Shown piece after piece: positions 1 through 14,729 of a stretch of DNA of 64,000 nucleotides (positions are counted from its first letter, which is position 1; the number at the start of each line of letters is the position of its first letter). Origin of the DNA: Devosia chinhatensis. Lineage in GTDB: Bacteria; Pseudomonadota; Alphaproteobacteria; Rhizobiales; Devosiaceae. Under the pieces are notes generated by a model. The model saw only the letters and a program-made list of their open reading frames with translations, was not told where the DNA came from and made no database searches. The translations under genes and the position numbers were made by a program. The stretch is taken from assembly GCF_000969445.1 (NCBI RefSeq), contig NZ_JZEY01000061.1, positions 1,103,501 to 1,167,500 on the forward strand. The letters are read 5' to 3'.

Positions 1-115
1 TATTGAAGCCGGCTTCCTCGATCGGGACGCCGGCTTCGCGGGCGAACACAAGGTCCGTCACCTGCTTGGAGCGCGGCAGCGAGCCGACATGGGTGGTGAG
101 GATCTTGTGTGCCAT
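1..115 (-). CDS. MetE-like (cobalamin-independent methionine synthase II family) protein, N-terminal part only
   Basis: The first 38 residues are visible and the gene runs off the left edge. The start MAHKILTTHVGSLPR carries the T-x-H-V-G-S-L-P-R signature found at the head of the zinc-dependent catalytic barrel of COG0620 proteins. That family includes methionine synthase MetE and relatives such as epoxyalkane:coenzyme M transferase, which act on thiols. It starts 4 bases after the cupin gene, so the two are probably co-transcribed from the promoter with the palindrome at 1180. The stand-alone barrel form and the catabolic setting argue against a normal biosynthetic MetE. Its substrate cannot be told from this fragment. 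Confidence 0.75.
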   Translation of the reverse strand, partial: MAHKILTTHVGSLPRSKQVTDLVFAREAGVPIEEAGFN

Positions 116-119
116 GGCT

Positions 120-1157
120 TTACTCTGCGGCTTGTGCGGTAGCGAAGTGCGGCGCGGCTGGGGCCGAGGCGCCACGCACCACAAAGGCGATGGCATCGGC
201 CGAAGCCGGGTTGCGGAAGCCATGCGCCAGCCCGACCGGAACGGTCAGCGTATCGCCGGCACCCATGATGATCGAGCCATCGGCCCAATTCACTTCCAGC
301 GTGCCGGACTGCACGAAGATCACTTCCTGCTCGCTTCGGCTATGGGCCGGGATCGTCGCACCGGTTTCCAGCTTCAGGCGGCGGAGTGCAAAGCCATGGT
401 CCCAGTGGCCGATGATCGGGCCGGCCTTGAAGCCGTCCTGGGCGTCCACGTCACCGATCAGCGCAGCCTCTTCGACACCTTCACCGGCAAGCGGCGAATT
501 CGGGTTCGCCTTCATCTGCTCAGGCTTGAGCGCGTATTTGGCCAGTTCCTCGATCGGCGGGGTGGCCAGTTCCTTGAGCTTTTCGGCGCTGGGGGGCTGT
601 TCGAGTTCGGCACCCTCAGGCACCTTTTCGCCCAGCGTCGTGTCGATCAGCTTGCCGCCCTTGAGCAGCTTCAGCCCGAAATCCTCGGCCATCTTGAAAA
701 CCGATGGTGCCCAGACCACCTTGCCCGGATCATCATGGCCGAGCACCACGTAGAGAAAGCCGGTGCCCTCGTCGCGCTTTTCAAAGCCACGGAACATATG
801 GGTGGGGACGGTCGCCACGTCACCGGGTTCGACATCGAGATAGCCTTCGTCCTTGTTGGCGCCGAAGACGAAGCGCCACTTGCCGGTATGGACCACGAAG
901 GTCTCGGCGGTCAGGTGGCTGTGCTGGGAATTGGTGCAGCCGAAGGGCTGGCGGGCCGCGCCGACATTGAAGCCGTGGGCCTCGGGGATATGCACCACCT
1001 GGGCGGGATTTTCCGAAACGCCCGGCCCGATGATGGTGAAGTTTTCCTTGCGATCCGAGCCGGGCGTGCGCGCGTCGATGAACGCATTGCGCAAACCCTT
1101 GAGATCGGCATAGCGCACCAGGCGCTTTTCCATTTCAGTCTGCGTCCACTTGGTCAT
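120..1157 (-). CDS. Double-cupin domain protein
   Basis: This 345-residue protein has two cupin barrels. The first holds H79, H81, E85 and H120 (NSQHSHLTAET ... PTHMF). The second holds H272, E276 or E278, and H312 (AHSRSEQEVIF ... GLAHGF). Both sets match the cupin metal-ligand pattern. The arrangement resembles gentisate-dioxygenase-type bicupins, but the sequence does not settle whether it is a dioxygenase, an isomerase or a lyase. It is the first gene of a two-gene unit with the MetE-like gene. A LacI-type palindrome lies 22 bases before its start, with an AAGGA ribosome site between. A role in the catabolic route of this block is inferred from position and shared operator. Confidence 0.75.
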   Translation of the reverse strand: MTKWTQTEMEKRLVRYADLKGLRNAFIDARTPGSDRKENFTIIGPGVSENPAQVVHIPEAHGFNVGAARQPFGCTNSQHSHLTAETFVVHTGKWRFVFGANKDEGYLDVEPGDVATVPTHMFRGFEKRDEGTGFLYVVLGHDDPGKVVWAPSVFKMAEDFGLKLLKGGKLIDTTLGEKVPEGAELEQPPSAEKLKELATPPIEELAKYALKPEQMKANPNSPLAGEGVEEAALIGDVDAQDGFKAGPIIGHWDHGFALRRLKLETGATIPAHSRSEQEVIFVQSGTLEVNWADGSIIMGAGDTLTVPVGLAHGFRNPASADAIAFVVRGASAPAAPHFATAQAAE

Positions 1158-1179
1158 GGGGACAATCCTTTCAGTCGAA

Positions 1180-1195
1180 TTGCATTCGTATGCAT
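1180..1195. promoter_or_regulatory. Putative LacI-type operator upstream of the cupin gene
   Basis: TTGCATTCGTATGCAT is a near-copy of the perfect palindrome TTGCATACGTATGCAA at 4423. It has the central CG typical of LacI/GalR operators and lies 22 bases upstream of the cupin start. Similar sites precede the other two transcription units of this block, so the LacI protein encoded at 1237-2307 is the obvious candidate to bind it. Confidence 0.65.
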
Positions 1196-1236
1196 AAGAG
1201 GGCGTAAAGCGGGCCGGATGAGGGCGGAAACAGGCA

Positions 1237-2307
1237 TCATCCCTCCCTGGGCCGGTAAATCTGTTGTCCGTCTCGCGCGACGATGCCGCTCTGGGGCAGT
1301 CGTGCCGAGCTGCGCACGACGAGGTCGCCGTTGAGGATGCGGTGTTCCGCCTCGATTTCGCCGCTGGCGATCTGGTCCATCAGGATGTCGACCGTGGCCT
1401 CCACCATGCGCTTGACCGGCTGGCTCATCGAGGTGATGCCATAGGAAGACCAGGTCGAGGGGCCGACATCGTCATAGCCGACAATGGAAATGTCCTCGGG
1501 GATACGCAGACCGAATTCGTAGCGCGCCACATCCATCACCGCCACGGCCATGTGGTCATTGGCGACGAACAGCGCTTCCGGCCGTTTCGTCAGTGAAAAC
1601 ATGCGTCGCGCCGCATCCTGCGCTTCGCTGCGTGAATAATTGCCGGTTTCAACGATGATCTCGGTTATGCCGTGGCCGGCCAGACCTTCGGCATAGCCCT
1701 GGAAACGGTCGCGATTGGTCGAGGAGTTTTCCAGACCGGCAATATAGCCGAAGCTGGTGTGACCACCGGCCACGAGGAAATCGGCGATGCGCTTGCCGCC
1801 TTCACGGTTGCGGGTGGTGACGCTCGAAACCGCGTCGCGCTCGGTCGTCCGGTTGAAGAGAACCACCGGAATGCCAGCGGTGGCGCATTCCTCGGACAAT
1901 TCGGAGGAGAGCGAGGTCGAGGCGAGGATGATGCCGTCGACGCGATATTGCATAAGCTGATCGAAAACCGGGTCGCTGTCGCGATCCATGAACCCGGTGA
2001 ACAGCAGCAGGTGATAATTCTCGGCGGCCAGGGCGCGTCCCAGCTCTTCAAGCACGTCGGGATAGAAAAGGTTTTCGAGATATGCCATCACCACCGCAAT
2101 GATGCGCGAGCGATTGGTGATGAGCGAGCGGGCAATGGCATTGGGCCGATAGCCCAGCGTCTTGGCGGACGCCAGGACCTTCTGGCGCGTCTTGGGAGAA
2201 ATCGAAGCGCCGGGCGTAAAGGCACGGGACACGGCCGATTGCGAGACGCCGGCATGCTCGGCGACCTGGCTGGACGTGACGCCCGGTTTTCTTACTCCGA
2301 TGTCCAT
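1237..2307 (-). CDS. LacI-family transcriptional regulator of the local catabolic block
   Basis: The protein has 356 residues. An N-terminal LacI helix-turn-helix (VTSSQVAEHAGVSQSAVSRAF) and hinge helix are followed by a periplasmic-binding-like sensor domain. The ATG at 2307 is chosen because it directly precedes the HTH; a longer open frame upstream lies inside the SDR gene. The start overlaps the end of the SDR gene by 16 bases, so it is translated from the hisD-like/SDR message and is probably autoregulated through the palindrome at 4423. Very similar palindromes at 1180 and 10560-10597 would be its other targets. The effector is probably the transported substrate or a breakdown product of it, which is an inference. 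Confidence 0.85.
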   Translation of the reverse strand: MDIGVRKPGVTSSQVAEHAGVSQSAVSRAFTPGASISPKTRQKVLASAKTLGYRPNAIARSLITNRSRIIAVVMAYLENLFYPDVLEELGRALAAENYHLLLFTGFMDRDSDPVFDQLMQYRVDGIILASTSLSSELSEECATAGIPVVLFNRTTERDAVSSVTTRNREGGKRIADFLVAGGHTSFGYIAGLENSSTNRDRFQGYAEGLAGHGITEIIVETGNYSRSEAQDAARRMFSLTKRPEALFVANDHMAVAVMDVARYEFGLRIPEDISIVGYDDVGPSTWSSYGITSMSQPVKRMVEATVDILMDQIASGEIEAEHRILNGDLVVRSSARLPQSGIVARDGQQIYRPREG

Positions 2308-3056
2308 CCGCCATCCACCAAGAGGGACGTTCCCGTCACCAGCCCCGAGGCTTCGGAGGCCAGGAACACGATCGGCCCCATCATGTCTTCCACTCGTCCC
2401 AGCCGGCCAAGCTTGATTTTCGAGAGCACCCAGCTGCGAAAGTCCGGGTCGCTCAGGTTCTTGGCCGTCAACTCGGTTTCCACGAAAGTGGGACACACCG
2501 TGTTCACCCGGATATTATTGGGCCCCAGCTCGATTGCCATGGCCTTTGTCAGGCCCTCCACAGCATGTTTGCTCGCGGCATAGACCGCCCGGCGCGGCCC
2601 GCCCACATGTCCCATCTGCGAGGAGATGTGGATGATCGAGCCGGATTTGCCCGTTTCGATCAGCCGGCTGACGATCGCCTGGGACACAAAGATCGTCGCC
2701 CCCAGATTGACGTCCATCACCGCCTGGTAATCGGCTGGGGTGATGTCGGCGAAGTCCGAATGGCGGGCCGTCCCCGCCGAATTGACGAGAATGTCGAACG
2801 GCTCGACGTCCGCGACATAGGTCTTGACCGCACGATTGTCAGTGATGTCGAGCGCCACGCCCTCGGCCTCAAGGCCCGCTGCGGCCATTTCGGAGACGAC
2901 GGTCTCGATGTCGCTGGCCGTACGGGCGGCAATGGTGACATGGGCTCCCGCTTCAGCCAGGGCCACGGCGGCGCCCAGCCCTATACCCCGCGTGCCCCCG
3001 GTGACAAGGGCACGCTTGCCGTCGAGACGGAAGCTGGGGGTGCGGGGCAGGGCCAT
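2292..3056 (-). CDS. SDR-family oxidoreductase
   Basis: A classical short-chain dehydrogenase of 254 residues. The NAD(P)-binding TGGTRGIG sits at residues 19-26, the catalytic Ser at 145/146 (HISSQ), and Tyr159 and Lys163 in YAASK. The ATG at 3056 follows the hisD-like stop by one base, so the two genes are translationally linked; an upstream in-frame ATG lies deep inside the hisD-like gene. Pairing of an SDR with a HisD-like enzyme recalls the HpsO/HpsP plus HpsN arrangement for dihydroxypropanesulfonate, in which one enzyme oxidises a secondary alcohol and the other oxidises a primary alcohol to the acid. The actual substrate here is unknown. Confidence 0.85.
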   Translation of the reverse strand: MALPRTPSFRLDGKRALVTGGTRGIGLGAAVALAEAGAHVTIAARTASDIETVVSEMAAAGLEAEGVALDITDNRAVKTYVADVEPFDILVNSAGTARHSDFADITPADYQAVMDVNLGATIFVSQAIVSRLIETGKSGSIIHISSQMGHVGGPRRAVYAASKHAVEGLTKAMAIELGPNNIRVNTVCPTFVETELTAKNLSDPDFRSWVLSKIKLGRLGRVEDMMGPIVFLASEASGLVTGTSLLVDGGWTSE

Positions 3057-3057
3057 T

Positions 3058-4386
3058 CTATTCGGCCGCCTGCGGACGCGGGCTGGCACCGGTGCCATAG
3101 GGCACGTTGCGACCGCCATAGCGGCGCACGCGCACATTGGCCTGTTCGGCATGGCCGACAAAGCCTTCGAGCATGCTGAGGCGCGATCCATATTCCCCGA
3201 TCATCGCCGAAGCCTCATCGCTCGTAACGGTCTGCCACGTACAGGTCTTCATGAATTTCCCCACCCACAGGCCACCGGTATAGCGCGCTGCCTTCATCGT
3301 GGGGAGGGTGTGATTTGTGCCGATGACCTTGTCGCCATAGGCAACATTGGTGCGCGGTCCCAGGAACAGTGCGCCGTAATTGGTCATGTTGTCCCGGAAC
3401 CACATGTCCCGGTCGGTCATCACCTGCACATGCTCGGACGCAATGCCATCGGCGACGGCCAGCATGTCCTCGTAGCTCTCGCAAACGATGACTTCGCCGA
3501 AATCCTCCCAGCTCTTGCGGGCGATTTCGCCGGTCGGCAGGATGTCGAGAATGCGCTCGATCTCCGCCATGGTGTCGCGCGCCAGCTTTTCCGAATTGGT
3601 GAGCAGGATCGCCGGGCTCGTCGGGCCGTGTTCGGCCTGGCCCAAAAGGTCGGTGGCGCACATTTCACCGTCCACCGTTTCGTCGGCGATCACAAGCGTT
3701 TCGGTAGGGCCGGCGAAAAGGTCGATGCCCACGCGGCCGAACAACTGCCGCTTGGCCTCGGCCACGAAGGCATTGCCGGGGCCCACCAGCATGTCGACCG
3801 GATCGATGCTCTCGGTACCGATCGCCATGGCGCCGATCGCCTGGATGCCGCCGAGCACGTAGATTTCATCGGCACCGGCCATCGCCTGTGCGGCGACGAC
3901 AGCCGGTGCCGGCTTGGCTCCGAAAGGCGGAGCGCAAGTGATGACCCGCGCGCAGCCGGCGACCTTGGCGGTGATCACCGACATATGGGCGGATGCGAGC
4001 AGGGGATATTTGCCGCCGGGCACGTAGCAGCCCACGGCATTGATCGGCACATGCTTGTGCCCCAGCGTCACGCCCGGCAGCGTCTCGATGGCAAGGTCCG
4101 TCATCGTGTTGCGCTGCGCCTGGGCGAAATTGCGCACCTGGGTCTGGGCGAATTCGATGTCGTGCAGGTCCTGGTCGGTCAATTGCGCCAGGCAATCGTC
4201 GATCTCGCGCTGGCTGAGGCGAAAATCGGTGCGCTCCCACTTGTCGAACTTCTGGCTGAGTTCGCGCACGGCCTGGTCGCCGCGCTTTTCGATATCGCCC
4301 AGGATGGTCTCGACAGTGGCCCGGACCTGCCGGTCGGCTTCCGCCCGCTCCTCGACATCCTTACCGCGCTTGAGCCAGGTTGGCAT
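3058..4386 (-). CDS. Histidinol-dehydrogenase-like enzyme, probably catabolic (HpsN-like)
   Basis: The protein has 442 residues and the histidinol dehydrogenase fold. The usual zinc ligands are present (Q250, H253, D352, H412), as is the catalytic pair E318-H319 (SEHVQVM). It should oxidise a primary alcohol to a carboxylate in two NAD-dependent steps. The segment [12 protein letters not shown] at about residues 367-378 differs from true HisD (typically a SGLSVxDF-type segment) and looks like the sulfopropanediol dehydrogenase branch. Genes around it are catabolic and no his genes are near. ATG 4386 is chosen because GAGGAG lies 8-9 bases upstream and an earlier ATG (4428) falls inside the operator. 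It is the first gene of the unit with the SDR and LacI genes. Confidence 0.85.
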
Positions 4387-4422
4387 GTTCGCCGCTCCTC
4401 GTCTGTTCTGTAATGCACCATA

Positions 4423-4438
4423 TTGCATACGTATGCAA
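4423..4438. promoter_or_regulatory. Perfect 16-bp palindromic operator before the hisD-like/SDR/lacI unit
   Basis: TTGCATACGTATGCAA is identical to its own reverse complement. On the minus strand a TTTACA (4442-4447) could be a -35 element, with a weak -10 about 17 bases further on. In that case the palindrome fills the spacer, the classical place for a LacI-type repressor site. It is the best-conserved member of the four-copy family in this block. Confidence 0.7.
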
Positions 4439-4490
4439 AACTGTAAACTGAAACATTGGTCGGAGGCGAAATCGCCTCGCCGCAGAAATG

Positions 4491-6023
4491 TCAGGAGAGC
4501 CCGGGCGGCCTTTGCACCGCATGGTCCGTGGCGTGTTCGAAGGCGTCGCCGATTTGCACGATCCGCGCTTCGTCATGGTGCCGACCGATAATCTGCATGC
4601 CCATGGGCAATCCGTCATCAAACCCGACGGGCACCGCCAGGACCGGGTGACCGCTGAGATTGAACCCGATCGTTCGCATGGGCGTCCACACCGCTTCCTT
4701 CTCGAATGGCGCGGCGGGCAGGGCGGTGGTGAGTGCGCCCACGGTGACCAGGGCGTCGAAGCGGCCCAGCAGGCGGTCGACATCGGCGCGGAAGGCTGCG
4801 CCGGCGCGACGGGCACGCGCGACCTCTTCATCCGTCAGCGCCAACCCGGCGGCGAGGCTGAGGAAACAGCGGCGGCCATAATCCTGCGGATGGTCCCGCA
4901 GATTGGCGGCGTGATAGTCGAAGCTTTCCTTGTGCAGCACAGCGGCGGCGGCCACTTCGATAGCCGGATAATCGGGCAGGCTCACCTCTTCGATCACAGC
5001 CCCGAGCTGGGAAAGCGTCGACATGGCCGCATCCATGGCTGCGAGCACGCAAGGCATGGTCTGCGGATCCTGTGCGAACCAGTCCCGGCCATAGCCGATG
5101 CGCAGTCCGGAGATCGAGGTCCCGATGAGCCTGGACGCCTGGCTGCCGGCGATAACGTCGAGCGTCAGGGCCGCTTCGGCCACACTCGAGCTTATCGGCC
5201 CGACATGGTCCATGCTCGCGGCCATGGGCAGGGTGCCGGTGTCGGGCACAAGGCCTAGCGTCGGCTTGAGCCCCACGACCCCGCAATAAAATGCCGGACC
5301 CCGCAGCGAGCCCCCGGTGTCGGTGCCAAGCGTGGTGCGCAGCATCCCGCCCGCCACTGCCACGGCGCTGCCCGAGGACGAGCCGCCGGTAATGTGGTCG
5401 AGCTTCCAGGGATTGCGGGCCGGGGGAAACAGCCCCGATTTGTCCGGGCCCACAGTGCCCCATTCATAGGTGGCCAGCTTGCCGACGATCACCGCGCCGC
5501 CTTCGGCCAGCCGGGATACGACCAGCGCATCGGCTTCGGCAAGGGCGTCGGCGCGGCCGGGCGCATCGGCCGTCGTCGGCACGCCCGCGACATCGATGAG
5601 GTCCTTAATGCCGACGGGGATCCCGTGCAGCGGGCCGCGATCGTGGCCATTGGCCAGCTCGCTGTCGGCCCGCTCGGCATCGGCCAGAGCACGCTCCGCC
5701 AGCACTGCATAGAAGGCTCGATAGGCGCCATCGCGCGCCGTGATCCGTTCGAGACAGGCTTCTGTCAGAGCCCGGGCGGTAAATGTCCCGTTCCGCAGCA
5801 GCCGCCCCTGTTCGACAAAGCTCAGATCGAGCGCGGCCCGAGCCGCGCCAGGCGAAGCCTCCTCGGGCAGAGCGGCGATGCCGGACTGCATCCAGCCCAC
5901 GAGCTGGCGCAGTCCGACCTGCTCGGCGGGGGACACATCAAGGCCATGCCGTGTCAGCGCGGCGTCGAGCCCGTCCTGCACATTGCCCTCACGATCGGCC
6001 GGCTGCGGCTTGGCGGCAGCCAT
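4491..6023 (-). CDS. Amidase-signature family hydrolase
   Basis: The protein has 510 residues with the full Ser-cisSer-Lys triad of the amidase-signature family: K140 (GIKDLIDV), cis-Ser215 (GGSSSGS) and nucleophile Ser239 (GTDTGGS). It cleaves a C-N bond of an amide; the exact amide is not known. No signal peptide is seen, so it acts on imported material. It follows the transporter ATPase gene by one base and is the last gene of that operon, which suggests that the imported compound is an amide or carries one. A small GAGGCG/CGCCTC hairpin just downstream (4463-4478) may weakly end the transcript. An AtzF- or GatA-like role is less likely given this context. Confidence 0.85.
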
Positions 6024-6024
6024 C

Positions 6025-7083
6025 TTAGGCGGTCGTCTCGATGCGAGTGCCGCTGGTGCGGTCGAACAGGTGACAGGCGGCTGGAGCGATGTCGACCCGC
6101 ACCATGTCGCCGATCTCTGCGCGATAATCCTTGCCGACCTTGATCGAGACCAGTTCGCCGGCGACGCGCATGGCGATCATCGTGGCTTCGCCGAGGAGCT
6201 CGACCGAATAGATCGGCGCCGAAATATTGCCGGTCTCACCCGCCAGCGTCGCGTCCTCGGCCCTGAAGCCGAGCGTCACCGGCCCCTTGACCGATTTGGA
6301 GAGCCCCTCGATGCGGATATTGGTGCCGGTAAAGACCCCATCCTGGATATCGCCATGCACCAGGTTCATGGCCGGAGAGCCGATGAAGCTGGCAACGAAT
6401 GTGTTGGCCGGGCGGTCGTAGATTTCCATCGGGGTGCCGACTTGCTGGATCAGCCCCTTGCTCATCACCACGACGCGGTCGGCCAGGGTCATGGCCTCGA
6501 TCTGGTCATGCGTCACATAGATCGTGGTGCGCTTGAGCGTGTGATGCAGGTTCTTGATCTGGGCACGCGTCGAGACGCGCAGCTTGGCATCGAGATTGGA
6601 CAGCGGCTCGTCCATGAGGAAGGCATTGGGCTCGCGCACGATGGCGCGGGCCAGCGCCACGCGCTGGCGCTGGCCACCCGAGAGGGCGGCGGGCCGGCGC
6701 TCGAGGAAATCGTCCAGTTCCACCATCTTGCTGGCCGCCATGACGCGCTCGTGGTGTTGCTCCTGGGGCACCTTGCGCACCTTGAGTGGGAAGCGGATGT
6801 TTTCGTAGACCGTCATGTTCGGATAGAGCCCGTAGCTCTGGAACACCATGGAAATGTCGCGATCCTTGGGCTCGAGCTTGTTGACCAGCAGGTCCCCGAT
6901 CCAGATTTCGCCCTCGGTAATGTCCTCGAGGCCGGCGATCATGCGCATCGTGGTGGTCTTGCCGCAGCCCGAGGGCCCCAGCAGCACCAGGAATTCCTGG
7001 TCCGCAATGTCGAGGTTGAAATTATCGACGCCGACGAAATTGCTCCAGCGCTTGGATACGTTCTTGAGACGAATCTGGGCCAT
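6025..7083 (-). CDS. Sugar-type ABC transporter ATPase (UgpC/MsmK-like)
   Basis: A 352-residue ATPase with Walker A GPSGCGKT (about 36-43), signature LSGGQRQRVALARA, Walker B FLMDEP and the switch His in VTHDQ, followed by a C-terminal TOBE-like regulatory region as in MalK and UgpC. It powers import by the two permeases encoded just upstream. It lies 7 bases after the second permease gene and 1 base before the amidase gene, so it is in the same operon. ATPases of this class may serve several transporters, but here the complete set is local. Confidence 0.9.
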   Translation of the reverse strand: MAQIRLKNVSKRWSNFVGVDNFNLDIADQEFLVLLGPSGCGKTTTMRMIAGLEDITEGEIWIGDLLVNKLEPKDRDISMVFQSYGLYPNMTVYENIRFPLKVRKVPQEQHHERVMAASKMVELDDFLERRPAALSGGQRQRVALARAIVREPNAFLMDEPLSNLDAKLRVSTRAQIKNLHHTLKRTTIYVTHDQIEAMTLADRVVVMSKGLIQQVGTPMEIYDRPANTFVASFIGSPAMNLVHGDIQDGVFTGTNIRIEGLSKSVKGPVTLGFRAEDATLAGETGNISAPIYSVELLGEATMIAMRVAGELVSIKVGKDYRAEIGDMVRVDIAPAACHLFDRTSGTRIETTA

Positions 7084-7089
7084 TTGCGA

Positions 7090-7977
7090 TCAGCCTTTCA
7101 CTGCGCCGGCGGTCAGGCCGCTGACGATCTGGCGTTGGAAGAAGAGGACGAGGATAAAGAGCGGCACGGTAGCCGAGACCACGGCAGCCACGGCAAACAT
7201 GACATTGCCTTGCTCCTGCACCGAGCCGAGGAAGCTCGAAATCTTGGGCACCATGGTCTGGTTGTCGGCGCTGAGCAGCATCGAGGTTACCGCGAAGTCA
7301 TTATAGGCGAGCAGGAAGCTGAACAATCCCGTCGTCACCACGCCCGGCCACATGACCGGAATGATGACGCGGCGGAAGGCCTGGAAACGTGTACAGCCAT
7401 CCACCATGGCGCTCTCGTCCAGGTCCTTTGGAATGGACAGGAAGAAGGAGTGCAGCATCCACAGCGTAAAGGGCTGGTTGATGGCCACGAGCACGATGAT
7501 CGTGGTTGGCAGCACCCCCCAGACATTGAGCTGGAAGAAGGGGAGCAGATAGCCCGAGACCAGGGTAATGTGCGGCATGGCGCGGAACACCAGAGCCGCG
7601 ATGAGGATCCAGAACGCATAGCGGTGCCCCGAACGGGCCAGGGCATAGCCACCCAGCGTGCCCAGGGTCAGCGAGATCACGGTCACCGAAACGGTCACGA
7701 TGGCCGTATTGCCCACGGCCCGCCAGAATTCGCGGGTGACCCAGGCGCCGTAATAGCCGTCGCCGGTGAAGGGGGCGCCATGCTGACGCTGGGTGAAGGG
7801 GCCGGTAATGGCGTTCATCCAGTTCTGGCGCGAGAAGAAGTCCGGCTCGACCTTGAACGATCCCCACACCGTCCAGGCGAAGGGGAAAGCGGCCAGCACG
7901 ATCCAGATCGCCAGGAGCCCGAAGATCACGATGTTCATTGCCAACGGGCGGCGTTGGGAGACACTCGATCCAGTCAT
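7090..7977 (-). CDS. Carbohydrate ABC transporter permease, MalG/UgpE type
   Basis: A 295-residue inner-membrane protein with about six hydrophobic helices. The EAA loop, DESAMVDGCTRFQAFRRVIIP, in its second half contacts the ATPase. It is the CUT1-type second permease of the transporter. Its start lies 1 base after the stop of the first permease gene, and the ATPase gene follows, so translation is coupled. Substrate specificity cannot be read from permeases of this class. Confidence 0.88.
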   Translation of the reverse strand: MTGSSVSQRRPLAMNIVIFGLLAIWIVLAAFPFAWTVWGSFKVEPDFFSRQNWMNAITGPFTQRQHGAPFTGDGYYGAWVTREFWRAVGNTAIVTVSVTVISLTLGTLGGYALARSGHRYAFWILIAALVFRAMPHITLVSGYLLPFFQLNVWGVLPTTIIVLVAINQPFTLWMLHSFFLSIPKDLDESAMVDGCTRFQAFRRVIIPVMWPGVVTTGLFSFLLAYNDFAVTSMLLSADNQTMVPKISSFLGSVQEQGNVMFAVAAVVSATVPLFILVLFFQRQIVSGLTAGAVKG

Positions 7978-7978
7978 G

Positions 7979-9010
7979 TCAGACCACCTTGTGATTGAAT
8001 TCGCGCCAGGTGCGGATCAGCACCGGGGTAAGCAGGATGATGACACCGATAATGGTGATGACCGAGGTGGCGCCGGCAGAACCGAACAACAGCGCGTCGC
8101 CGGAAAGATCGTTGAAGATCAGCCAGCTGAGGGATGTTGCATTGGCCTCGGCCGAAAAGCCCACGATCGGCTCGAAGACGCGGAAATTGTCCATCAGCTG
8201 CACCAGCGCCACGAAGGTGGCGAGCGGTGCCAGGTGAGGGATCACCACGTAGCGGATGCGCTCCCAGCGGCTGGCGCCGTCGATCATCGCCGATTCCAGC
8301 GTATCGGCAGGCACGGTCTGCAGGCCCGCATAGAACACCACGAAGCTGAAGGGGGCATTGGTCCAGACCCCGTAGAACAGCAGCGACAGCCAAGTCAGCA
8401 CTGGTGACTGGCGCAGTGACAGTGTCGGATCGTCGAACAGGACGCGCAGATTGGCCCCGATTATGCCGTTGGGCTGGATCATCCAGTACAGGATCAGCGA
8501 GCCGATCAGCGGCGTGATGATCATGGGCAGCAGCGAAAAGAAGATGACCGGCCCCTTGAGCATCTTGGGGATGGTGTTGACGCCCAGCGCGATGATGAAG
8601 CCCAGGCCCATGGCCAGCGGCGTCACCACGAAGCAGAAGACCAGGGTAAAGCTTAGCGCCTTATAGAAGGGCAGGTTGTAGATGCGGCTGACGATGTCGC
8701 CCAGGCCAGTGTTGTTGGCCAGGATGGCGCCGATTTCGTTGACCGCCAGATGGCCCCGGTTGAGATAGGTGCCAAAGCCGTTAAACTGGCCCATCGGCTG
8801 TTCGGCCCGCAATTGCGCCATGGCAGCGGTGTCGACGCGCGTCTCGGTCGTGCACCCCCCGAACGGTTGGCAATTCTCCACCGAAACCAGAATGCGGCCA
8901 TGCTCGACATGCATGCTCTGCACCACTACCGAGACGATGGGCAGTGCGATGAAGAGCACCATCGCGATCAGCGAGGGCAGGATGAAGGCAAAGAATGTCT
9001 TGTGCGGCAT
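7979..9010 (-). CDS. Carbohydrate ABC transporter permease, MalF/UgpA type
   Basis: A 343-residue inner-membrane protein with an N-terminal membrane segment, then a predicted periplasmic stretch at about residues 30-110, then a block of helices. Its EAA loop contains ESAMIDGASRWERIRYVVIP. The long first periplasmic region is typical of MalF-like partners. It is separated from the binding-protein gene by 157 bases that contain a strong hairpin (9092-9130), and is followed directly by the MalG-like gene. Confidence 0.88.
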   Translation of the reverse strand: MPHKTFFAFILPSLIAMVLFIALPIVSVVVQSMHVEHGRILVSVENCQPFGGCTTETRVDTAAMAQLRAEQPMGQFNGFGTYLNRGHLAVNEIGAILANNTGLGDIVSRIYNLPFYKALSFTLVFCFVVTPLAMGLGFIIALGVNTIPKMLKGPVIFFSLLPMIITPLIGSLILYWMIQPNGIIGANLRVLFDDPTLSLRQSPVLTWLSLLFYGVWTNAPFSFVVFYAGLQTVPADTLESAMIDGASRWERIRYVVIPHLAPLATFVALVQLMDNFRVFEPIVGFSAEANATSLSWLIFNDLSGDALLFGSAGATSVITIIGVIILLTPVLIRTWREFNHKVV

Positions 9011-9091
9011 GCAATGCCTCCCTGACGCGGCAAATTAATGGGGCGCAGCGGTCCGATCCGCCTTCACCGCCCGGGCCCGGGAGGTGCGGGG

Positions 9092-9130
9092 GCGAAGGGG
9101 TCCTTCGCGATCTGGCGCGGACCCCTTCGC
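9092..9130 (-). promoter_or_regulatory. Hairpin between binding-protein and permease genes
   Basis: GCGAAGGGGTCC (9092-9103) pairs perfectly with GGACCCCTTCGC (9119-9130), a 12-bp stem with a 15-base loop and no T-run. Hairpins in this position usually stabilise the upstream binding-protein mRNA or partly stop transcription, giving more binding protein than permease. The same design occurs in the second ABC operon at 51741-51777. Confidence 0.6.
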
Positions 9131-9167
9131 GATGTGCAGGATTATGCGGCCGGCTGGCCGAATATCC

Positions 9168-10406
9168 TTAGAGGTAGCCGCCTTCCTTGGCAGCGGTGTC
9201 ATAGGCGGCCTTGACGTCGGCCAGAGCCTGTTCTGCGCTTTCCGAGCCGGCCATGAACTCGGCCAGTTCGACCGAGAGGGCCGTGTGCAGCAGGCCCATA
9301 TAGGGCTGCATCGGATAGGCGCGGGCGCCGGCATTGGCGGTGGCGATCACGCCGACAGCAGCCGGGCCGGGCTCGTAACCGGCCACCAGCCAGGTGGCGA
9401 CGGTCGGGTTGGCGGCGACCATGTCGGGGCTGATGCCGTGCACCATGGCCTGGAACGAGGCGGCGGCGTCTTCATCGGAGATGTTCTTGGCGATGGTGAA
9501 GCCGTCCCACCACAGGGCCACGGCCGGCACGCTGCCACCACCAACGGTCGGAGCGGCGGCCAGCACGGTGTTTTCCACCACACCGTCGGCGGCACCTTCG
9601 CCATTGAGCATGTCACCGGCCAGCGAACCCCACTGCACCATCATGGCGACATTGCCGGCCTTGTATTCGGCCTGGATGCCATTGGCGTCGAAGGTCAGGT
9701 AGTCGGGATCCATGTAGGCGGTCAGTGCCTTCATGGTCTCGAGCGTCTTGAGGCCGTTTGCGTTGTCGATGTCGAGTTCGGCCGAACCGGTGGCGAAGAA
9801 TTCGCCGCCCGTGCCCAGATAGGTGTTCACGAATTCGGCAGCCAGATCCCAGCCGGGCTTGTCCGAAGCGGCCAGCGGATACTGCATCAGGCCATCGGCC
9901 TTGATTTTCTCGGCAGCGGCCAGGATGTCCTCATAGGTCTTGGGCTCGGCAATGCCGGCCTGATCCAGGATATCCTTGCGATAGAACAGGTGCTGCGCAT
10001 TGCCCATGAAGGCGATGGCCATGGTCTTGCCATCGATCTTGATCAGCTGGTTGGGCTGCAGGTCCTGGCCGTACTGGGCGATCAGGTCGTCCAGCGGACG
10101 GATCAGGTCGTCATTGAGCAGCGGCACGATGGAATTGTTGGCCACCACGGCCACGCTGTACTCGGCCGGGTTGATGGTGAGGGCCGGAACCTGGATATTC
10201 TTGTGTTCGGCCGTGGCGTTCGAGGTCACGGTGACCGAGCCGCCGGCACATTCGGCCGCGGTGGTGTTGACCAGGCGCAGGGCCTCGAAGTCATTGGACA
10301 GAATGCGCACCGAGCCGGTGCCCTCGATACCGCATTCGGCAAAGGCCGCACCGGCCGTCAGGCAGAGCACGCCCAGCGATACGGTGGTCTTCAGCAATAG
10401 TTTCAT
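9168..10406 (-). CDS. ABC transporter sugar-type substrate-binding protein
   Basis: A 412-residue periplasmic protein. A Lys-containing start, a hydrophobic stretch and a cleavage site after AAFA (about residue 23) form a Sec signal peptide. The rest reads as a family-1 extracellular solute-binding protein, with the typical region near MVQWGSLAGDML. ATG 10406 has AGGAG six bases upstream; the open frame extends 66 codons further but into the operator region. It is the first gene of the transporter-amidase operon and is preceded by two palindromic operators. The ligand is not known. Confidence 0.88.
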   Translation of the reverse strand: MKLLLKTTVSLGVLCLTAGAAFAECGIEGTGSVRILSNDFEALRLVNTTAAECAGGSVTVTSNATAEHKNIQVPALTINPAEYSVAVVANNSIVPLLNDDLIRPLDDLIAQYGQDLQPNQLIKIDGKTMAIAFMGNAQHLFYRKDILDQAGIAEPKTYEDILAAAEKIKADGLMQYPLAASDKPGWDLAAEFVNTYLGTGGEFFATGSAELDIDNANGLKTLETMKALTAYMDPDYLTFDANGIQAEYKAGNVAMMVQWGSLAGDMLNGEGAADGVVENTVLAAAPTVGGGSVPAVALWWDGFTIAKNISDEDAAASFQAMVHGISPDMVAANPTVATWLVAGYEPGPAAVGVIATANAGARAYPMQPYMGLLHTALSVELAEFMAGSESAEQALADVKAAYDTAAKEGGYL

Positions 10407-10559: not shown

Positions 10560-10597
10560 TTGAATACGAATGCAACAGTTTTTGCATGCGTATGCAA
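10560..10597. promoter_or_regulatory. Two LacI-type operators in tandem before the transporter operon
   Basis: TTGAATACGAATGCAA (10560-10575) and TTGCATGCGTATGCAA (10582-10597) both match the palindrome at 4423, with 2 and 1 differences respectively. Their centres are 22 bp apart, about two helical turns, so two repressor dimers could bind the same face of the DNA. They lie about 155-190 bases upstream of the binding-protein start, leaving a long leader. The doubling suggests tighter control here than at the single sites. Confidence 0.65.
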
Positions 10598-10638: not shown

Positions 10639-12000
10639 TCAGTTGCCCGTGGGCGCAGCGGGGAGTTCCAGGCACGCCGCGACCCCGCCGAGATCGGCGC
10701 GCTTGAGCCTTAGTGCGCCGCCATAGAGTGCCGTGAGATCGCTCACAATGGCAAGGCCGAGCCCTGAGCCGGGTCGGCTCTCATCCAGCCGCCGCCCGCG
10801 TTCCCGCGCCAGCGCGAACTGGGCGTCGTCCATGCCCGGCCCGTCGTCGCAGACGGTCACGGCGATCTTGCCGGCCGGCGGCGTTTCGACAGCGATATCG
10901 ATCCGGCTGCGCCCCCATTTGGCGGCATTGTCGATGAGATTGCCCAGCATTTCCTCGAGATCGTCACGCTCGCCGGCAAAGATCGCGTCCTTGTCCCCGC
11001 TGACATTGAACGCCAGCTGCCGATCCGCGTAGATGCCGCGAAACACCGGCAGCAGGTCGTCGACCACCGCGCCCAGGGGCGTGCGCGCCCCGGCAATGCC
11101 GACGGCGCCGGCGCTGCGGGCCCGGCGCAGGTGCTGGCTGATCATCCGGTTCATGCTGGCCGAAAGCGTCTCGACCTCGGTGCGTTCCGCCTCCGGCATG
11201 GCGCTGCGAGCGAGAAGCGCGTCGAGGCCCGAAAGCGGCGTCTTGAGCCCATGGGCGAGATTGCCCACATGCGTTCGCGCTCGCTCGATGGTGCTGCGCG
11301 AATGAGCCAGAAGGCTGTTGATCTGCGCCACCAGCGGCGCAAGCTCGTCGTGCCGCGCAGCCGGCAGGGTGTCCCGCTGTCCGGTTTCGATCGCCCGGAG
11401 ATCGGCCTCCACCTGCCGCAGCGGGCGCAACCCCAGGCGCACCTGGACGATGATGGCCAGGCTCAGCCCCAGCCCCAAAAGGCTCAGCGACCAGATCAGC
11501 GGGCCCACGATACGAGACACCTCGGCCTCGATCAGCGCTTCCGGCATGGCCACCGAAACGCGCAGTCGCCCGGTGCCGCCAGGCGCGGTGAAGTCGCGCT
11601 CCAGCACCAATAGCCTTTCCCCCTGCGGTCCGCTCATCATCCGTCGGCGCACGCTGCCATCCGGCTCGGCCAGGCCCAACCCAAGGGTGTCCGTCCAGAG
11701 CGAGCTCGAGCCGATCAGCACCTGATCGGCATCGGCGATCTGCCAATACCAGCCCGAAAAGGGCTGCTCGAACCGGGGGTCGGCAACCGAGGCGTCGAGG
11801 CGCAGCCTGCCGGCATCCTCGTCGAATTGTGTATTGGCCATCAGCGCCACCATGGTGGCATTGAGATTGGTTTCGAACGTCTCGACCACGAATGTGCGCA
11901 ACAGGCCGGAGATCACCAGCCCGGCCGCCACCAGCGCCACGAGACTGGCGCCCAGCGCCAGCACCATCAGCCTGAGCGCCAGCGAATGCCTGCCGATCAT
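10639..12000 (-). CDS. Sensor histidine kinase (PhoQ/RstB-like architecture)
   Basis: A 453-residue inner-membrane kinase. A first membrane segment at about residues 9-33 is followed by a periplasmic sensor of some 130 residues, a second membrane segment near 165-190, a HAMP-like linker, and a dimerisation helix with the phosphoacceptor His in GNLAHGLKTPLSG. The C-terminal ATPase has N-box NLIDNAAKWG and G-boxes DDGPGM and GSGLGLAIV. It should phosphorylate the response regulator encoded directly upstream, whose stop codon it overlaps. The periplasmic signal is unknown; the nearby PepSY proteins suggest an envelope cue. Confidence 0.88.
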   Translation of the reverse strand: MIGRHSLALRLMVLALGASLVALVAAGLVISGLLRTFVVETFETNLNATMVALMANTQFDEDAGRLRLDASVADPRFEQPFSGWYWQIADADQVLIGSSSLWTDTLGLGLAEPDGSVRRRMMSGPQGERLLVLERDFTAPGGTGRLRVSVAMPEALIEAEVSRIVGPLIWSLSLLGLGLSLAIIVQVRLGLRPLRQVEADLRAIETGQRDTLPAARHDELAPLVAQINSLLAHSRSTIERARTHVGNLAHGLKTPLSGLDALLARSAMPEAERTEVETLSASMNRMISQHLRRARSAGAVGIAGARTPLGAVVDDLLPVFRGIYADRQLAFNVSGDKDAIFAGERDDLEEMLGNLIDNAAKWGRSRIDIAVETPPAGKIAVTVCDDGPGMDDAQFALARERGRRLDESRPGSGLGLAIVSDLTALYGGALRLKRADLGGVAACLELPAAPTGN

Positions 12001-12668
12001 TGCGCCTCCGGGCTGGCGCCGAGACGGTAGCCCTGGCCTCGCACCGTTTCGATCAGTCCGGCCCCGATCTTGCGGCGCAACCGCCCGATGATCACTTCGA
12101 GCGAATTGAAGTCGCGTTCGGTGTCCCGGTCATAAAGATGCTCCGACAATTCGGTGCGCGTCACCGCCCGTTCCGGGTGGTGCATGAGATAGGCCAGGAC
12201 CCGATATTCGAAGGCGGTCAGCTTCAGCGCCAGGCCGTCACGGGTGAAGAGACCGATCTGGGTATCGAATTCCAGCGGGCCGCAGGTGAGGATCGTGCTG
12301 GCATGTCCTGCCGCCCGCCGCACCAGCGAGCGCAGCCGGATCACCACTTCCTCGATGCGGAAGGGCTTGGTCACGTAATCGTCGGCTCCCGCCCGAAAGC
12401 CGCGTACCTTTTCGGACCATTCCTCCCGCGCGGTCAGGATCAGCACCGGCATGGCCCGCCCCGCCTTGCGCCAGGCCTCGAGCACGGCGATGCCGTCCAT
12501 TCCCGGCAGGCCCAGATCCAGCACCACCGCGTCATAGGTCTCGGTCTGGCCCAGATATTCGCCTTCCGTGCCGTCGGCGGCGCGGTCGGTGGCAAAGCCC
12601 CCTTCATTGAGTGCGGCGATAAGGCCGGCCGCGATCCTCTCATCGTCTTCGACCACCAGCACCCGCAT
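11997..12668 (-). CDS. OmpR-family response regulator
   Basis: A 223-residue regulator. The receiver domain has the acidic pair in VEDDE, the phosphorylated Asp in VVLDLGLPGMDG and the conserved Lys in TKPF. A winged-helix DNA-binding domain follows (RTELSEHLYDRD ... VIIGRLRRKI). Its start overlaps the stop of the PepSY gene (TGATG), and the kinase gene overlaps its end, so the three genes form one translationally coupled unit. TGAACC repeats with an 11-bp period just upstream of the unit are the best candidate binding sites. Confidence 0.9.
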   Translation of the reverse strand: MRVLVVEDDERIAAGLIAALNEGGFATDRAADGTEGEYLGQTETYDAVVLDLGLPGMDGIAVLEAWRKAGRAMPVLILTAREEWSEKVRGFRAGADDYVTKPFRIEEVVIRLRSLVRRAAGHASTILTCGPLEFDTQIGLFTRDGLALKLTAFEYRVLAYLMHHPERAVTRTELSEHLYDRDTERDFNSLEVIIGRLRRKIGAGLIETVRGQGYRLGASPEAQ

Positions 12669-13003
12669 CAGTTTTGTCTCCGCCGCGCATCCACAAGGCC
12701 CCGGCCATCGACCTCCAGAATCTGCCCGCTCATCGCATCCACGCGCAAGGCCAGGATGTCGCCCCGCGCCGTCAGCAGGCGAAAGGCATAGACAATGTCG
12801 GTCATGTCCTCAGGGCGTCCCGGTTGCAGTTCGGCGGCCACGATCTGCCCGTCAAAGCGCGCCGTCACCGCCGCCATGGCGCCGGTAATGGGCAGCAGCG
12901 CATCCTGCGCTGACTCTTCAGCAGGAGCCTGCGCCCAAGCCGGCATCGGAGCGGTCAGCATCAGCGCAAGCGCCAGAACGGGCATGACAATCAAGCGTTT
13001 CAT
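12668..13003 (-). CDS. Small secreted PepSY-domain protein
   Basis: This 111-residue protein has a clear signal peptide (start MKRLIVMPVLALAL, cleavage after AWA near residue 25) and one PepSY-like domain. The domain contains VTARFDGQIVAAELQPG and a C-terminal DILALRVDAMSGQILEVDG, the usual beta-strand end of PepSY. PepSY proteins are often peptidase inhibitors or sensors at the envelope. As first gene of a PepSY-regulator-kinase unit, it may modulate the kinase's periplasmic domain; that is an inference. ATG 13003 is chosen because the signal peptide begins there. Confidence 0.75.
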   Translation of the reverse strand: MKRLIVMPVLALALMLTAPMPAWAQAPAEESAQDALLPITGAMAAVTARFDGQIVAAELQPGRPEDMTDIVYAFRLLTARGDILALRVDAMSGQILEVDGRGLVDARRRQN

Positions 13004-13027
13004 CGCCACACAATAGCAGGCAAAGCC

Positions 13028-13065
13028 TGAACCGAAATTGAACCGCGCAGTTCCAGCTGGGTTCA
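13028..13065. promoter_or_regulatory. Three TGAACC half-sites in the divergent PepSY promoter region
   Basis: TGAACC occurs at 13028-13033 and again at 13039-13044, exactly 11 bp apart. An inverted copy, GGTTCA, is at 13060-13065. Direct repeats at one helical turn are the standard OmpR-family binding pattern. The region lies between the PepSY-regulator-kinase unit and the divergent PepSY-repeat gene, so one regulator could control both. Confidence 0.55.
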
Positions 13066-13111
13066 ATGCCCTCCTGCTAGGGATGTTTCACACCAACCAC
13101 AGGAGAAAGCC

Positions 13112-14652: not shown

Positions 14653-14729
<77 letters not shown>

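Follow-up and report, generated by a model that had tools for sequence, protein, structure and literature searches.

What do the genes at the left end of this stretch of Devosia chinhatensis DNA do, and do they act together? The stretch, hereafter the window, comprises 64,000 nucleotides (C61:1103501-1167500 of a 3.5-Mb genome). Its positions 1-10406 hold a gene cluster coded entirely on the minus strand, which reads leftward beyond the window in the extended stretch L003. A sequence-only reading had claimed six functions here, namely a sugar-type ATP-binding cassette (ABC) importer, an amidase, a HisD-like dehydrogenase, a short-chain dehydrogenase/reductase (SDR), a double cupin and a MetE-like protein, and had proposed that a shared operator joins them for a single catabolic purpose. 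All six functions are present. We conclude that importer, enzymes and regulator almost certainly form a joint catabolic unit, because the operator, a recurring neighbourhood and the gene profile of the genus agree, and the single purpose proposed earlier is backed by the same three lines of evidence. That this LacI regulon imports and degrades a mycosporine-type compound, by the route set out below, is a tentative proposal.

The operator is the perfect palindrome TGCATACGTATGCA. The exact match lies 5′ of the HisD1-SDR-LacI genes (4424-4437), a copy with one mismatch (TGCATTCGTATGCA, 1181-1194) lies 5′ of the cupin gene, where related loci have sites at the corresponding place, and two copies precede the importer genes (TGAATACGAATGCA, 10561-10574, two mismatches; TGCATGCGTATGCA, 10583-10596, one mismatch). 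A further site with at most one mismatch is found left of the window, between the genes for a second HisD-like enzyme (HisD2) and an aldehyde dehydrogenase (ALDH). Taken from the window by itself the operator evidence is too weak: a scan at up to three mismatches gave four matches, and 5 of 100 shuffled sequences also reached four. The genome-wide counts, on the other hand, are striking. Across all 3.5 Mb there are four distinct sites with at most one mismatch and all four fall within the cluster, as do five of the six sites found at up to two mismatches, where a reversed-pattern control gave three. The sixth (C61:1070696, two mismatches) falls inside a permease gene at a distance of about 30 kb and is probably a chance match. 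The shared operator claimed earlier is thus upheld at the level of the genome. When 35 related loci were scanned, 23 had a site with at most one mismatch and 8 had none even at two mismatches, counts that were taken without shuffled sequences. The former include 13/13 of the loci L009-L021, mostly at corresponding positions, and also loci from Sinorhizobium (L006) and Octadecabacter (L007) as well as L078, L080-L082, L084 and L085. The regulator encoded at 1237-2307 (PF00356, PF13377) is of the LacI family, and the cluster would accordingly constitute one LacI-controlled regulon, with repression by this protein presumed at the sites. The spacing of the genes is tight: the LacI and SDR genes overlap by 16 bases, the SDR-HisD, amidase-ATPase, ATPase-permease and permease-permease intervals measure 1-6 bases, and the breaks between gene runs are 79, 104 and 157 bases.

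The gene set is found again across Alpha-, Beta- and Gammaproteobacteria from soil and sea; many carriers are sphingomonads and, judging by record titles, many are marine. Our first set of loci consisted of the best 80 of at least 490 cupin relatives plus five plasmid loci (L004-L088); four pairs overlap in sequence (L004/L024, L038/L047, L053/L072 and L009/L011). Gene counts used the 61 of 85 loci with 8.5 kb or more to each side of the cupin gene, and the Fisher tests reported below on such counts ignore kinship. HisD was found in 54 of these loci, LacI in 56, SDR in 46, SnoaL-type proteins in 56, an aldolase of the RraA or HpcH type in 47 and MetE in 24. All five of HisD, SDR, LacI, SnoaL-type protein and aldolase occurred together in 40/61, at least four in 48/61, and two or fewer in 8/61. 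A replicate set of 28 loci was chosen by the cupin alone; 26 were new, and L128 and L129 repeat L027 and L005. Three of them (L106, L120 and L127) are short. Class counts rest on the 25 loci with at least 18.4 kb, among which HisD was present in 21, LacI in 18, SDR in 18, aldolase in 20, SnoaL-type proteins in 25 and MetE in 9, with all five classes in 15 and at least four in 19. The six functions named earlier consequently do not make up the whole unit, which also takes in an aldolase, SnoaL-type proteins, an alpha/beta hydrolase and, in many cases, a second HisD.

Within the genus, the cupin was detected in 27 of 61 genomes at an E-value of 1e-60. At the same threshold none of 40 genomes from 40 other genera had it, although this cut-off may overlook a more distant version of the cluster in three of them (G080, G088 and G091), which have MetE-like matches of 56-60% identity. 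At 1e-50, two other groups gave 18/293 and 12/298 genomes, the query's own genome being counted in each. The amidase accompanied the cupin in 27/27 genomes and was present in 2/34 genomes without it, one of these two being 55% complete; the MetE-like gene was found in 12/27 and 0/34, respectively. HisD1 behaves differently, with relatives of at least 86% identity in seven of the 34 genomes that lack the cupin at 1e-60. In related loci, then, the genes stay together rather than being scattered, with these seven genomes as the reservation. The presence pattern in the genus identifies the unit as an accessory catabolic island, one in which MetE is optional and whose HisD1 has uses elsewhere.

HisD1 (3058-4386, PF00815) has HpsN and (R)-dihydroxypropanesulfonate (DHPS) dehydrogenase as its closest solved relatives. 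The zinc and catalytic residues (Q248, H251, E318, H319, D352 and H411 of CpHpsN) are kept in both HisD1 and HisD2 (L003:8779-10077, divergent), and HisD1 shares with the HpsN and DHPS dehydrogenase relatives a lysine beside the zinc aspartate. These residues support the earlier suggestion that HisD1 could oxidise an alcohol to an acid. We rejected a role for HisD1 in histidine biosynthesis because the genome has three HisD-family matches at 1e-60, of which the cluster holds two, and because the regulon is catabolic. The NCBIfam model TIGR00069 calls HisD1 histidinol dehydrogenase, well above its cut-off, and automatic annotation therefore mislabels it. On the Sinorhizobium medicae plasmid the HisD1 gene is split into two separate open frames (L006:8437-10016). 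The amidase-signature hydrolase (4491-6023, PF01425) proved to be tied to HisD2. Both were present in 24 of the 61 loci, HisD2 alone in 1, the amidase alone in 2 and neither in 34 (Fisher 1.3e-13); put differently, the amidase was found in 24/25 loci with HisD2 and 2/36 without. Amidase and HisD2 are a linked optional module. The amide-bearing substrate proposed from the sequence accordingly fits the clusters that have this pair and not the remaining ones.

The cupin gene (120-1157) encodes a candidate ring-cleaving dioxygenase. Pfam recognises a C-terminal cupin only (best stretch 261-327), but structure prediction gives a bicupin (pLDDT 92.4), which bears out the double cupin of the earlier description. 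Sequence matches were limited to small single-domain cupin entries. In fold comparison oxalate decarboxylase, seed globulins and the quercetin dioxygenase YxaG were tied in Z, and YxaG had the lowest root-mean-square deviation among the 50 matches listed (2.2 over 233). The N-terminal domain has a metal site of H79, H81 and E85 in 32/32 sequences; the bicupin fold and two His plus one Glu in this site are also features of YxaG (quercetin 2,3-dioxygenase) and salicylate dioxygenase, from which the cluster protein differs by an Arg as fourth ligand and by a C-terminal site that varies between members. The MetE-like protein (5′ end at 1-115; whole gene L003:10988-12115, extending left past the window edge; PF01717) adopts the MetE fold, with UROD next, and has at least 8000 relatives at E 0.001. 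Its zinc ligands H245, C247 and E279 are conserved in 22/22 aligned homologues and C343 in 21/22. The fold and the His, Cys, Glu, Cys ligands are shared with MetE and epoxyalkane:coenzyme M transferase, but the cluster protein is a single domain of 376 amino acids in a catabolic setting and does not have the two-domain architecture (~750 amino acids) of MetE methionine synthase. Structures of other single-domain relatives have been solved (1ypx, 3rpd), so the size of the protein is no guide to its reaction. A few homologues carry an epoxyalkane-coenzyme M transferase label, from source annotation only.

Left of the window an RraA-like aldolase is encoded (L003:10131-10850), along with an alpha/beta hydrolase-SnoaL fusion in a single reading frame (L003:4159-6090), ALDH and a zinc alcohol dehydrogenase (ADH). 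Ten of the loci L009-L021 and four sphingomonad loci share the fusion, whereas Sinorhizobium (L006) has hydrolase and SnoaL as two neighbouring genes. The two aldolase families nearly exclude each other: 20 of the 61 loci have RraA only, 25 HpcH only, 2 both and 14 neither (Fisher 3.4e-5), which suggests that both perform one shared step, the release of pyruvate. The RraA profile reaches the solved aldolase for 4-carboxy-4-hydroxy-2-oxoadipate (CHA) of the gallate/protocatechuate 4,5-cleavage pathway, 3noj, weakly (E 3.9e-6), and the R-D pair of that enzyme is kept. In the HpcH proteins, residues H43, R68, D82, Q145, E147 and D173 are present in 19/19 aligned sequences; they match what we take to be the catalytic residues of class II HpcH/HpaI enzymes, namely a His-Asp pair, an Arg, and Glu and Asp metal ligands.

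What compound would require these enzymes? We consider it plausible, if somewhat short of an even call, that the substrate is a small cyclic compound that carries amino acid substituents and has a hydroxyl and a hydroxymethyl group side by side. Mycosporines, natural sunscreens of algae, cyanobacteria and fungi, have these features. They are cyclohexenones with OH and CH2OH at C5, a methoxy group at C2 and an amino acid at C3, and at C1 too in the mycosporine-like amino acids (MAAs). To our knowledge all natural MAAs bear the methoxy group. Vicinal OH and CH2OH are the type of group that HisD enzymes bind via zinc, and the side chains include serine in shinorine, threonine in porphyra-334 and glutaminol in the common fungal mycosporines. 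The glutaminol side chain would explain why an aminol oxidase is paired with an amidase. A mycosporine or MAA as the actual substrate is nonetheless on the unlikely side.

We infer every enzymatic step of the route that follows; read directly from the DNA are the operator, the gene set, the enzyme families, the catalytic residues of HisD1 and HisD2 and the zinc site of the MetE-like protein. The compound would enter through the CUT1 importer, and in other lineages through TonB receptors or MFS or SSS carriers. Where the side chain is an amino-alcohol amide of the mycosporine-glutaminol type, HisD2 would oxidise the alcohol and the amidase would remove the amide. SnoaL-type proteins and the alpha/beta hydrolase may then free the amino acids from the enaminone, and HisD1 with NAD+ would oxidise the ring's CH2OH, the neighbour of the tertiary OH, to COOH. 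The 2-methoxy group could be lost via the MetE-like enzyme; alternatively it could be kept, and in clusters without MetE the alpha/beta hydrolase would then act on the methyl ester that ring cleavage yields. The bicupin, with O2, would cut the C2=C3 enediol to give CHA, HOOC-CO-CH2-C(OH)(COOH)-CH2-COOH, the substrate of CHA aldolase, and an aldolase of the RraA or HpcH type would finally split CHA into pyruvate and oxaloacetate. The carbon count from a mycosporine-type cyclohexenone to CHA is exact. Such funnelling of the ring by an O2-dependent bicupin to CHA and central metabolites, with HisD oxidation of the hydroxymethyl group and the HisD2/amidase pair as an add-on for fungal glutaminol-type mycosporines, is possible but doubtful.

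We also sought genes of amino acid metabolism near the cupin loci (tdh, kbl, gcvP, gcvT, sdaA, glyA and ilvA), listing for the replicate those matches that had the E. coli gene as best query. SdaA, an L-serine dehydratase, was found within the stretch covered in 4/86 loci of the first set (L061, L062, L067 and L069) and in 4/28 of the replicate (L104, L107, L111 and L124), 2.3-8.0 kb from the cupin gene. A Poisson estimate for the replicate (independent loci, 3.8 Mb, 1.1 copies per genome) is about 0.16; genomes have 1 to 3 SdaA matches, and an expectation of 0.18 is equally fair. Some carriers are kin, so there are fewer independent events than counted. In G373 SdaA lies 12.7 kb off, and in G106 about 11 kb off if contig C1 is the contig of L075. 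Eight control genes were absent from all 28 replicate loci; in the first set the controls were not all silent, with IlvE-like proteins of 29-33% identity in L037 and L029. The threonine genes tdh-kbl occur in two Halomonas loci, within the cluster in L045 and at its end in L044, and in each of these genomes the cluster-linked copy is the sole tdh at 1e-40. A stop interrupts tdh in the L044 copy (L044:15811-17425), where the kbl frame continues into a transposase gene. The SdaA and tdh-kbl neighbours count in favour of the mycosporine-type proposal. In the replicate, ilvA, glyA and gcvP gave 0/28, and besides SdaA there was a single gcvT-like match (L130); gcvP and glyA had no match across the first 86 loci. 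IlvA-like matches in L083 and L088 and a gcvT-like match in L079 were left out of the counts, and a Kbl-like match in L078 (36%) is presumably a relative of 5-aminolevulinate synthase. The L079 protein (L079:13671-14867, Planktomarina, 25% identity to E. coli GcvT) stands beside the cluster and is possibly a second demethylase.

Several observations weigh against a mycosporine-type substrate. SdaA is found in a minority of loci whose carriers are partly kin, and serine may stem from one-carbon metabolism; tdh and kbl were absent from all 28 replicate loci, and in L044 they stand behind their own regulator gene at the end of the cluster. The YxaG match of the cupin is no better in Z than oxalate decarboxylase or the seed globulins, and the cupin's fourth metal-ligand place is R123 in 32/32, a departure from the full 3-His-1-Glu site of bicupin dioxygenases. 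The RraA proteins carry E-X20-R-D in 12/12, with Glu for the Asp of what is presumably a D-X20-R-D motif in CHA and 4-hydroxy-4-methyl-2-oxoglutarate (HMG) aldolases, and in 14/61 loci neither an RraA nor an HpcH aldolase was found within the stretch covered. MetE is missing from 37/61 loci and 15/27 cupin-bearing genomes of the genus, which makes the MetE-like member of the earlier list present here but optional in general. The SDR (2292-3056, PF13561) has no firm step in the route, and the 25 NCBIfam models listed for it, out of 236, were all below their cut-offs. HisD1, moreover, is not confined to cupin loci. Of six cupin-less HisD1 places inspected in the genus (L096-L101), two (L100 and L101) are HisD1-SDR-LacI cassettes that lack a bicupin and have a xylose-isomerase-like (AP_endonuc_2) TIM barrel and an importer of the ribose type beside them, and in L096-L099 HisD1 stands in other neighbourhoods, adjoining a GH32-like gene in L098. 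Because threonine genes were absent from the replicate and HisD1 has these other settings, we lowered our estimate for the mycosporine-type proposal a little.

The strongest competitor is a branched-chain or deoxy sugar acid, or a cyclitol-like sugar. HisD1 and SDR would oxidise its CHOH-CH2OH end, cupin and SnoaL would isomerise or dehydrate, and the aldolase would cut a 2-keto-3-deoxy acid to release pyruvate. We regard this as a genuine possibility, though one that we would not bet on. The importer speaks for it. A binding protein (9168-10406, PF01547), two permeases (7090-7977 and 7979-9010, both PF00528) and an ATPase of the UgpC/MalK type (6025-7083; NF008653 above cut-off) make up a CUT1 system, and with its LacI regulator the arrangement resembles the CUT1 sugar importers of the UgpC/MalK family, including that of the sorbitol binder SmoF, except that the cluster binding protein is just distantly related. 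Its profile reaches sorbitol, sulfoquinovosyl-glycerol, maltose/trehalose and chitin-oligosaccharide binders, all distant; these sugar, polyol and glycoside binders count against a mycosporine-type ligand as well, and the sequence relatives name no ligand. The cassettes of L100 and L101 would fit a cyclitol-like compound and equally an ordinary sugar, and the GH32-like neighbour in L098 points the same way. The RraA and HpcH families also include keto-deoxy acid aldolases. A sugar leaves the MetE-like enzyme, the amidase and the association with serine dehydratase unexplained. Both cassettes (L100:7801-11068 and L101:9289-12433) carry the same operator at no more than one mismatch, and L100:7190-7777 encodes a 196-amino acid protein with no Pfam match.

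Methoxylated, lignin-type aromatic dimers would engage many of the same enzymes and are rather improbable. HisD would oxidise the gamma-CH2OH, SnoaL-type proteins would act as formaldehyde lyases, MetE would demethylate, the cupin would open the ring and the aldolase would act on CHA. In favour of this reading, the gallate route ends with CHA aldolase, lignin dimers are substrates of SnoaL-like lyases, and sphingomonads are numerous among the carriers. Sugar-type ABC import, the many marine carriers and the serine genes are not accounted for, and an inspection of the recurrent unassigned families, done by eye on the beginnings of the sequences and with scans of some, brought up no other conspicuous enzyme family of such a pathway. 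Less probable again, and in our view quite unlikely, is a ring-free compound of the pantothenate or aminol-amide type. The co-occurrence of amidase and HisD2 would suit it, as would the ability of RraA and HpcH enzymes to decarboxylate oxaloacetates, but the amidase/HisD2 pair is optional and less common than HisD1, cupin and aldolase, and the roles of cupin and SnoaL would go unexplained.

The kinship of HisD1 with HpsN finally raises a variant sulfonate pathway for a DHPS-like compound. As in the hpsN-hpsO-hpsP-suyAB pathway, a HisD-fold enzyme is encoded next to an SDR, the zinc and catalytic residues are kept and four-electron alcohol-to-acid chemistry is expected; unlike it, the cluster adds cupin, MetE-like protein, SnoaL, hydrolase, aldolase and a sugar-type importer. 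In the CpHpsN study the HpsN motif is given as G-R-Y-A/S-H, with His126 binding zinc and sulfonate (PMC11382572). The corresponding position in the cluster HisD-like proteins is Leu or Met in 112/112 readable motifs and never His (88 from the first set, where four more were unreadable, and 24 from the second, two of which repeat L027 proteins). With this sulfonate-recognising residue missing, no SuyB-type gene at the cluster and the sole PF04295 match of the genome at C61:428102, about 675 kb away (among sulfite-releasing enzymes the SuyAB type was the one covered), we ruled the DHPS pathway out and consider any HpsN-based variant of it extremely improbable.

Directly right of the importer, 10639-13066 encode a sensor kinase, a response regulator and an adjacent small gene, none of them with its own operator site. 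A tRNA-Arg (CCG) gene follows on the minus strand at 14653-14729, about 4 kb right of the cluster. About 30 kb to its left, L102:813-6483 carries a dihydropyrimidinase-like gene, an ABC importer and a binding protein. For both of these gene groups the names come from reading the sequence.

The earlier statement that no described pathway has this combination agrees with our literature searches, which returned no description of the gene set; searches on mycosporine catabolism likewise gave no catabolic genes or pathway, in both cases on the basis of listings from a library that lacks most subscription journals. The enzyme families are known; what appears to be undescribed is a single regulon that brings them together. 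Because automatic annotation labels the key enzymes with the names of biosynthetic ones, histidinol dehydrogenase and methionine synthase, a catabolic trait is hidden. If the substrate were indeed of the mycosporine type, these genes would serve as markers with which to follow how a large pool of ultraviolet-absorbing nitrogen compounds is turned over.

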